Positions 39,381 through 49,345 of a stretch of 52,083 nt of DNA are shown here, in pieces. The stretch comes from an uncultured Clostridia bacterium. GTDB lineage: Bacteria > Bacillota > Clostridia > Oscillospirales > Oscillospiraceae. The DNA is taken from contig CAMHEN010000003.1 in the NCBI GenBank assembly GCA_946184165.1, forward strand, positions 1 through 52,083, given 5' to 3'. How positions within the stretch are numbered: the stretch's first letter is position 1; each line of letters starts with the position of its first letter. The notes below the pieces were generated by a model. The model was not told where the DNA came from. It did not search any database and saw only the letters and a program-made list of their open reading frames with translations. A program made the translations under genes and the position numbers.

Positions 39381-39402
39381 AGGGCTTCCCTCCTAAAATT
39401 AT

Positions 39403-39560
39403 TTCAATTGCAAACAACGTTTGCAATCGAGGACCCGCATTTATCGCACGCGGCGGAGCGTACACGCCGCGTTTGGCCGATGCGAGGCCTCGCAAGGCTC
39501 GGCTCAGGGTGTTGTTGAGGCGGCAAAGCGGCCTCAACAACGATTTGAAATCCTGCCGCC
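39403..39560 (+). repeat. Intergenic palindromic repeat, family A (copy b)
   Basis: TTTCAATTGCAAACAACGTTTGCAATCGAGGACCCGCATTTATCGCACG ... GCGAGGCCTCGCAAGGCTCGGCTCAGGGTGTTGTTGAGGCGGCAAAGCGGCCTCAACAACGATTTG. Confidence 0.75.
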
Positions 39561-40049: not shown

Positions 40050-40168
40050 ATTCTCACCTTCTTTTTCTGCCTTTCACAATCGACCGTTCCAGCATACAGG
40101 CTTATCACACCGGGGTCAAGAAGAATCGCTTGAAATTTCTCCGGGAGGAGATATAATGACTATATGAT

Positions 40169-40376
40169 GGCGAAACGCCGCAAGGCGTTCCGCCGAGCCG
40201 CCCTGCGGCTCAGCGCCGCAGATTGGCTGCGGCGCCCTATATTCATTGCAATGAGCATCGCGCGAATGATTATGAAATCATTCGCTGCCAAACTTGTCGT
40301 TTGGCGGCGAAATCAATCGAATCCTCGATTGATTTCACCGTGCGATGATCATTATAATGGGTAAAACGCAAGCGTT
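40169..40376. repeat. Tandem array of about seven distinct short hairpins
   Basis: Stems at 40169-40194, 40195-40211, 40213-40235, 40262-40285, 40287-40305, 40309-40336 and an AACGC-AA-GCGTT dyad near 40365-40376. Confidence 0.85.
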
Positions 40377-40388
40377 GGGAGGATTGTC

Positions 40389-41192
40389 ATGATTCTTGTC
40401 ATCTTTTCCGTGATTTCCGTCATCGCGGGAATCGTCTCGACCGCGCTGGGCCATACCCCCTGGCAGAGCGTGCTGGTATTCCTCGGGGCGTTTCTGGGGC
40501 TCAATCTTTTGTACGCGATCTTCTGGTTCGGCGTGTCCGCCACAGTGGACCGGAAGAAGCCCCTTGAGAAGATCCGCCCCATCTACCCCGAGGGCTGCAT
40601 CTCTGTTGCGGGCTGGCTCTGTGCCTGGGCGGGCGTCCGCGCCGAGGTAAACGGGATGGAGAAGCTGCCGCAGGAGGGTCGCTTTCTCCTTGTGTGCAAC
40701 CACCGCTCCATGTTCGACCCCATCGTGACGGAGTATGTGCTGCGCAAATACCGCCTCGCCTTTATCACCAAGCCCTCGAACCTGGAGATCCCGGGCATCA
40801 GCAGGCTGGCTGTGGGCGCGGGCTTTCTCGCCATCGACCGGGAGAACGACCGGGAGGCCCTCAAGACCATTCTGAAGGCCGCGGACTTTCTCAGGAAGGA
40901 TCTCTGCAGCATGGTTGTCTACCCCGAGGGCACCCGCAGCAAGACCGGTGTGATGGGCCCCTTCCACGCGGGCAGCTTCAAGATCGCCCAGCGGGGCAAT
41001 GTGCCGGTGGTCGTGGCGGCGATCCGGGGCACCGAGCAGGTACACAGGCACTTTCCCTTCCGTCCCACCCACGTGACTCTGGACATTCTGGACGTGATCC
41101 CCGCAGAGGAGGTCAAGGCCATAACCACCCAGGAGCTCTCCGCCCGGAGCCGCGCGCTTATTGAAAAGGATCTGGAGGAGGGCGCGGCATGA
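40389..41192 (+). CDS. plsC: 1-acyl-sn-glycerol-3-phosphate acyltransferase
   Basis: LLVCNHRSMFDPIV, FLAIDRENDREALKTI, VVYPEGTRSKTGVMGPFHAGSFKIA. Confidence 0.93.
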   Translation: MILVIFSVISVIAGIVSTALGHTPWQSVLVFLGAFLGLNLLYAIFWFGVSATVDRKKPLEKIRPIYPEGCISVAGWLCAWAGVRAEVNGMEKLPQEGRFLLVCNHRSMFDPIVTEYVLRKYRLAFITKPSNLEIPGISRLAVGAGFLAIDRENDREALKTILKAADFLRKDLCSMVVYPEGTRSKTGVMGPFHAGSFKIAQRGNVPVVVAAIRGTEQVHRHFPFRPTHVTLDILDVIPAEEVKAITTQELSARSRALIEKDLEEGAA

Positions 41193-41939: not shown

Positions 41940-42023
41940 CGCAGGGGTCGATCCCCAGATCGACCCGCCGAGCAGCACACATTGCTGGATAACGGCGGGC
42001 CGATGAAGGCATCGGCCCCTACG
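41940..42023. repeat. Family B palindrome R4
   Basis: CGCAGGGGTCGATCCCCAGATCGACCCGCCG ... CGGCGGGCCGATGAAGGCATCGGCCCCTACG. Confidence 0.85.
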
Positions 42024-42753
42024 GCTTTGTTTTTATCTTCCGGTACTCGCTCGGGAGCATGTGGTAGCGCTCGCGGAAGGCGGCGGAGAAGCGGCTCGGG
42101 CTGTCATAGCCTACAGCGGCGGCCACCTCGCCGATGCTCAGTTCCCCCTGCTGCAGCAATTCCGCCGCCTTTTCCATGCGGTGCTCCTTCATGTGGGAGG
42201 CGAGGGAGTCTCCGTACACCGCTTTGAACACGGCCTTGAGCGTGGTGGGATTCATGAGGCAGCGGCGGGAGAGCTCCTCAATGGTGACGCGCTCTTCGGG
42301 GTGCTGCAGGAGCTCATCGTGCATGCGGCGCACAGTGGCGGCCTGCTCCGGCGTAAAGGCCGCCGCATGCTCCTGCTCCTCCTCCCCGTATTCGGGACAG
42401 GAGATCTCCATGGTCTTCTCAATGACGCTGTGCAGGAGCTTTACCGTAGGGGTGTCGGCCGCGCGGTAGCAGACCTCCTTCCCCTCCCGGCGGCAGACGA
42501 TGAGGCCCGCCTCTTTTAATAGGCGCAGGTGGTGGGAGACGGCAGGGCTCGAGAGCCCCGTGAGGGCGGAAATATTCAAAACGCACTCCTCACAGTGGCA
42601 CAGAAGCCAGAAGATGCGCACGCGGCTCCCGTCGTCCAGGAGCTGAAAGATTTCCGCCACGGTGTCAAAGCCGCCCCCTTTCGCGAGGGCGCTTTTCAGG
42701 ATCGCCGCCCGCCGGATGTTCCCGTGGTTGTGGGGCATGAGTTCTATGTTCAT
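42019..42753 (-). CDS. Fused ArsR-family HTH + AraC-family HTH regulator
   Basis: N-terminal LDDGSRVRIFWLLCHCEECVLNISALTGLSSPAVSHHLRLLKEAGLIVCRREGKEVCY; C-terminal LSRRCLMNPTTLKAVFKAVYGDSLASHMKEHRMEKAAELLQQGELSIGEVAAAVGYDSPSRFSAAFRERY. Confidence 0.9.
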   Translation of the reverse strand: MNIELMPHNHGNIRRAAILKSALAKGGGFDTVAEIFQLLDDGSRVRIFWLLCHCEECVLNISALTGLSSPAVSHHLRLLKEAGLIVCRREGKEVCYRAADTPTVKLLHSVIEKTMEISCPEYGEEEQEHAAAFTPEQAATVRRMHDELLQHPEERVTIEELSRRCLMNPTTLKAVFKAVYGDSLASHMKEHRMEKAAELLQQGELSIGEVAAAVGYDSPSRFSAAFRERYHMLPSEYRKIKTKP

Positions 42754-49170: not shown

Positions 49171-49189
49171 TTTGCAGCCTCCTTTTTTA

Positions 49190-49345
49190 ATTCGATTGCA
49201 AACACGGTCTGCAATCGCGGAACTCGCATTTATCGCACACAGCGGTGCGTGATCCGCCGCGTTTGGTCGACGCGAGAGTTCGCTTTGCTCACTGACGGTG
49301 TTTCTGAGGCGGCAAAGCTGCCCCAAAAACGATTTGCGTAATTTG
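49190..49345 (+). repeat. Intergenic palindromic repeat, family A (copy c)
   Basis: ATTCGATTGCAAACACGGTCTGCAATCGCGGAACTCGCATTTATCGCACA ... GACGCGAGAGTTCGCTTTGCTCACTGACGGTGTTTCTGAGGCGGCAAAGCTGCCCCAAAAACGATTTG. Confidence 0.75.

Follow-up and report, generated by a model that had tools for sequence, protein, structure and literature searches.

The hairpins clustered upstream of a plsC-like gene in the window, the whole 52,083-nucleotide stretch of DNA analysed here from an uncultured Clostridia bacterium, form one unit: as judged by comparing its copies, the array is a single copy of a dispersed, 201-bp, non-autonomous palindromic mobile DNA element of gut bacteria. We consider it quite probable that the full explanation is a mobile double-cloverleaf element that is moved by a trans-acting enzyme and that cuts and restores -10 boxes, with survival of the promoters it enters.

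Structure of the element

The first-pass annotation of this DNA had described separate hairpins lying back to back at 40169-40376. The palindromes are located there in the sequence and the hairpins are real, but they are nested in two larger stems that form two cloverleaves. The unit also starts further upstream, at 40154, and the last hairpin of that range, AACGC-AA-GCGTT (~40365-40376), belongs to the native plsC leader and not to the element. The features of the locus are as follows.

40154..40354, + strand: whole mobile element, core TAATGA...TCATTA, 201 bp; from ~100 aligned copies and the empty ortholog of the window's site (L358 in genome G084)
40154..40159, + strand: left terminal repeat TAATGA, which with flanking TA makes TATAAT; >90% conserved at 102 sites
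40154..40248, no strand: cloverleaf A, stem 40154-40166/40236-40248 enclosing H1 (40169-40194), H2 (40195-40211) and H3 (40213-40235); from folds and pair counts
40243..40254, no strand: central seam TCATTGCAATGA; from the sequence and intact tandem junctions at three loci (L241, L244, L251)
40250..40353, no strand: cloverleaf B, stem 40250-40261/40342-40353 enclosing H4 (40262-40285), H5 (40286-40306) and H6 (40307-40338); from folds and pair counts
40349..40354, + strand: right terminal repeat TCATTA, which with flanking TAAT makes TTATAAT; from aligned copies and tandem junctions TCATTATAATGA
40130..40157, + strand: predicted plsC promoter rebuilt by the left end, TTGAAA (40130-40135), 16-bp spacer, TATAAT (40152-40157); promoter scan, 10-11/12 match
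40329..40358, + strand: putative promoter formed as a hybrid at the right end, TTGATT (40329-40334, in H6), 18-bp spacer, TATAAT (40353-40358, partly element and partly target); promoter scan, 10/12 match
40389..41192, + strand: gene for a plsC-like acyltransferase, preceded by the split promoter; Pfam PF01553, E = 1.6e-25

The element thus reads as stem A with its three hairpins, the seam, and stem B with its three hairpins, between terminal inverted repeats that are perfect over 6 bp only. The TCATTGCAATGA dyad, listed in the first-pass annotation among the stem-loops, is the seam between the two cloverleaves. At the three loci with tandem copies, abutting elements are joined as TCATTATAATGA, which suggests that the seam is probably an old tandem junction of this kind, now fused and mutated.

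Folding supports the structure on either strand. Over 40150-40400, the plus strand reaches -122.6 kcal/mol, compared with -78.6 +/- 5.1 in dinucleotide shuffles (z = -8.6), and the minus strand reaches -124.9 compared with -73.1 kcal/mol (z = -9.7). None of 200 shuffles was as stable as the native sequence, so that the array passes the shuffling test proposed for it at first reading. With DNA parameters, the element folds at z = -10.4.

Distribution and variants

A BLAST search of the window's own assembly returned 23 stretches matching the element, and a second copy in that genome is identical at 207 of 208 bases (99.5%). Within the genus the family occurs in 57 of 102 genomes, some with dozens of matches (74 stretches in G022), and at the family level in 12 of the 201 genomes drawn. 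An order-wide search beyond the family gave just short, weak matches of 21-46 nt, and the phage and plasmid collections searched for the element gave no match. The named matches are uncultured Oscillospiraceae or Clostridiales MAGs, for many of which the isolate names give rumen and gut. By these sequence matches, the element is shown to be dispersed and recently mobile.

The family also has structural variants. Seven copies in G022 (L228-L234) are of a long form of ~356 bp, in which a 157-bp insert occupies the loop of hairpin 4, and this insert is itself a dispersed three-hairpin family found in 36 of the 102 genus genomes. Apparent single-cloverleaf copies exist too. Members of the 157-bp family were also seen in G000 (C23, C7 and C24), and one of its hairpins occurs separately in several genomes.

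Insertion without target duplication

Empty orthologous sites were found at seven loci, six elsewhere and the window's own. In the relative G084, the empty site at the plsC locus carries an uninterrupted TTGAAT-N16-TATAATGGGG, and the reconstructed empty site of the window reads TTGAAA-N16-TA^TAATGGG, ~30 nt before the plsC start codon. These sites are consistent with TAATGA..TCATTA having been added cleanly at A^T, leaving the target unduplicated. The accretion of independent hairpins, as first envisaged, does not apply here, because relatives carry the empty site and the hairpins therefore moved in as one unit. The accretion of palindrome elements, also proposed at first as a landing zone, does have substance elsewhere in the family, in the second hairpin family nested in hairpin 4 of the long form, in the abutting TCATTATAATGA copies and in a seam that resembles a fused junction.

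The cleanest filled and empty pair (L215 in G072 and L331 in G007) is 99% identical, and the remaining pairs are 80-96% identical with gaps near the junction. The insertion step is A^T at ~95% of sites. At such sites, the resulting sequence is the same with a 2-bp AT duplication as without one; L215, a confirmed exception and the only clear non-A^T site, is inserted at G^T, which favours no duplication. Scanning 102 sites for duplications of 1-9 nt turned up no more than a weak signal at 3 nt (7 cases, with 1.7 expected), which arose among hundreds of combinations and has no support from the empty sites. The L215 copy lies directly before an apparent stop codon TAA (GAAG^TAAGCC), and the TAATGA start of the element restores the TAA.

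Landing in -10 boxes

When the core was removed in silico from 122 unique sites, a perfect TATAAT cut at TA^TAAT was recovered in 46, divided 21 to 25 between the two orientations. The same hexamer was found at 2.7% of 259 nearby A^T control sites and at 0.97% of 41,387 background A^T sites, and the background comparison, which uses 41 distinct TATAAT sites rather than 46 because some sites match in both directions, gives a 34-fold enrichment (binomial p ~1e-59, with sites treated as independent). The remaining 62% of insertion sites are without a perfect TATAAT. Upstream of the cut boxes, the match to TTGACA peaks at a spacer of 17, where 22% have at least 5/6 matches compared with 0-7% at other spacers. 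From these reconstructed sites, insertions are shown to be strongly enriched for sigma-70 -10 boxes cut as TA^TAAT, in both orientations and upstream of gene starts, and the element ends are shown to restore TATAAT on both sides.

With gene starts taken from a simple home-made, GC-frame-aware caller, ~66% of the insertions between genes fall 10-80 bp before a start codon, compared with 23% of A^T controls; among inserted TATAAT sites the proportion is 76%. Selection should act against insertions in 5' regions, and the bias therefore points to targeting, although survivorship of harmless insertions may contribute. A plain sequence preference for TTATAA(T) could yield much of the promoter bias.

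That last possibility leads to the strongest alternative, an ordinary MITE that prefers AT-rich TTATAA, hits promoters as the main location of TATAAT in GC-rich genomes and restores the box incidentally. The element is short, non-coding, dispersed and present in many copies, with terminal inverted repeats and empty sites in relatives, as a MITE would be. Enrichment reaches 28-fold for the palindrome TTA^TAA and 14-fold for TATAA lacking the final T, the TTA/TAA preferences on the two sides (left and right) are independent of each other (p = 0.41), and 46% of uninserted intergenic TATAAT also lie 10-80 bp upstream of starts. Unlike typical MITEs, however, the element makes no target site duplication. 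In addition, even where TATAAT is lacking, 60% of the insertion sites fall 10-80 bp before a start, well above the 23% of controls, and -35 boxes are better at inserted than at uninserted TATAAT: matches of at least 4/6 occur at 43% of the former and 27% of 157 uninserted intergenic sites (Fisher p = 0.047; Mann-Whitney p = 5e-4 for -35 quality), a modest excess. We regard this alternative as a serious one whose chance falls somewhat short of even. A stronger form of targeting, in which the transposition system is aimed at active sigma-70 promoters, for example at the melted DNA of the open complex at -11/-10, and in which box-mimicking ends rebuild the -10 to preserve function, is put forward tentatively and strikes us as rather unlikely.

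At the plsC locus, the promoter scan of the window gave two sites on the plsC strand, where shuffles expect 0.5 promoter-like sites in all. From these predictions, plsC could still be transcribed, either starting at the left junction, in which case its hairpin leader would be longer, or starting at the right one.

Proposed mechanism and mobilising enzyme

In the mechanism that we favour for the mobile double-cloverleaf element, a recombinase or transposase supplied in trans would recognise the folded or palindromic element and join its ends as a circle junction, TCATTA.TAATGA (TCATTATAATGA), which would then recombine with a target having a shared TTATAAT-like core. The lack of duplication, the palindromic AT step, the use of both orientations and the TCATTATAATGA-like target would together be the mark of a short-core recombinase. 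The rebuilt -10 box keeps its native distance from the host -35, so that transcription could continue from the left junction through the element into the gene, and such read-through would add a hairpin leader of ~0.2 kb. In one orientation, the right end may supply a second, hybrid promoter (TTGATT-N18-TATAAT). The restored -10 box would lower the cost of landing in a promoter and help the family persist.

Open reading frames at 116 element loci gave no recurrent transposase cluster and no autonomous partner with the same ends in these incomplete MAGs. Serine-recombinase (IS607) or IS110-type elements use a 2-bp core. An AT core common to circle junction and target would similarly explain the insertion pattern of the element, as a shared palindromic core would account for the strict A^T, the absence of net duplication and both orientations. 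An IS110 origin was not supported: the domain was over the cut-off in 24 of 102 genomes and in none of the high-copy carriers G000, G021, G022 and G002, all incomplete MAGs. An IS630/Tc1 origin was not supported either, as the empty sites do not fit a TA duplication and DDE_3 was absent from searches of G000, G022 and G002, again incomplete MAGs.

A further alternative is a single-strand element of the REP/REPIN kind, or otherwise derived from IS200/IS605, that depends on a Y1 tyrosine (RAYT-type) transposase for its movement. The element is palindromic and makes no target duplication, Y1_Tnp domains occur in 57 of the 102 genus genomes, and RAYT-like Y1_Tnp seem commoner where the element occurs, as counted by eye. 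However, element matches at E < 0.01 were found in 0 of 31 RAYT-like loci among the stretches fetched, and the hairpins on the flanks of many of these loci are of the CGTAGGGGC..GCCCCTACG kind instead. No Y1_Tnp match was obtained in carriers such as G000, G020, G002 and G052, which are incomplete MAGs, and the element ends are symmetric with both sides constrained. REPs are hairpins of 20-40 bp tagged with GTAG or CGTC (PMC3733652). The element resembles them in being a dispersed intergenic palindrome, and REPINs likewise consist of two inverted halves; it differs in its length of ~200 bp, its six hairpins and the lack of RAYT association in the loci read, and it is not a GTAG- or CGTC-tagged hairpin near a RAYT gene. 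We judge a RAYT-type origin improbable. Separately, REP-like GTAGGGGC...GCCCCTAC hairpins were noticed in the window at ~41995-42026 and at three other loci (L310, L339 and L344), and hairpins of this type flank RAYT-like genes in the genus, sometimes in tandem.

Comparison with other palindromic elements

Correia elements (CREE/NEMIS) of Neisseria are short, palindromic, high-copy MITEs with sigma-70-like promoter sequences (PMC10969869, PMC2229807). The present element is also short, non-coding, palindromic and high-copy, with TA-containing ends, frequent positions upstream of genes and sigma-70-like promoter sequences. Unlike Correia elements, compared by description, it makes no target duplication, has perfect ends of 6 bp rather than ~24 bp, contains an internal double cloverleaf, often inserts into the -10 hexamer in a fixed register and has no known autonomous partner.

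Helitrons insert between A and T without target duplication and have asymmetric ends, 5' TC and 3' CTRR, with no terminal inverted repeats. The element shares this mode of insertion, but its ends are the inverted repeats TAATGA and TCATTA and do not have the TC/CTRR form. In the open-access literature searched, the combination of a double cloverleaf, duplication-free insertion and a -10 register is not described, and we file the element as a new variant among palindromic non-autonomous elements.

Small palindromic elements are commonly dismissed as inert litter between genes. The present family apparently lands at a precise point within the promoter core and carries ends that mend the break; such a strategy would allow a parasite to spread across regulatory regions and rewire 5' leaders. 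The family also offers a concrete test of whether bacterial transposition machinery recognises promoters or open complexes.

Covariation of the stems

One fold is common to 13 full copies. This shared structure comprises 83 pairs, with pairing in 96.5% of cells and two-sided changes at 21 pairs; 0 of 500 shuffles reached these pairing and covariation values, and slid controls were 30-50% paired. Compensatory changes in relatives, which the first-pass annotation had suggested looking for, are abundant: the 105 full-length copies show 348 two-sided changes alongside 403 one-sided ones, and Watson-Crick pairs make up 95% of their cells. G-U and A-C mismatches are about equal (22 and 20 in one count). 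Among the 105 copies there are ~90 G-U and 102 A-C after omission of one fixed T.G pair, which accounts for 93 of 183 G-U cells, and the balance is independent of promoter orientation. The constraint on the stems thus looks strand-symmetric and at the DNA level, as would fit DNA palindromes under constraint or mutational correction; the pattern speaks against an RNA with a strand-specific structure. The early suggestion of a structured ncRNA or UTR therefore holds for position, as the hairpins lie between the plsC -35 and the ribosome-binding site, and fails on covariation.

A functional, non-mobile cis-regulatory RNA in the 5' leader of plsC and other genes would account for the stable fold, the strong covariation and the location between -35 and start codon, yet it is highly improbable and already largely refuted, given the many different sites in both orientations relative to the promoter, the empty orthologs, the absence of a G-U excess over A-C and the absence of a family match among Rfam covariance models (best, a sub-threshold 15.9 bits). 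As natural material, at least 100 insertions with covarying stems bear on how hairpin arms stay complementary.

Another dispersed multi-hairpin family, of ~150 bp, is present in the window at 39397-39555 and 49187-49336, with 43 matching stretches in the same genome. Many of its copies adjoin a reverse-strand Shine-Dalgarno-like CCTCC in one orientation, which makes the family a candidate for a 5'-leader element or for a further mobile element close to promoters.
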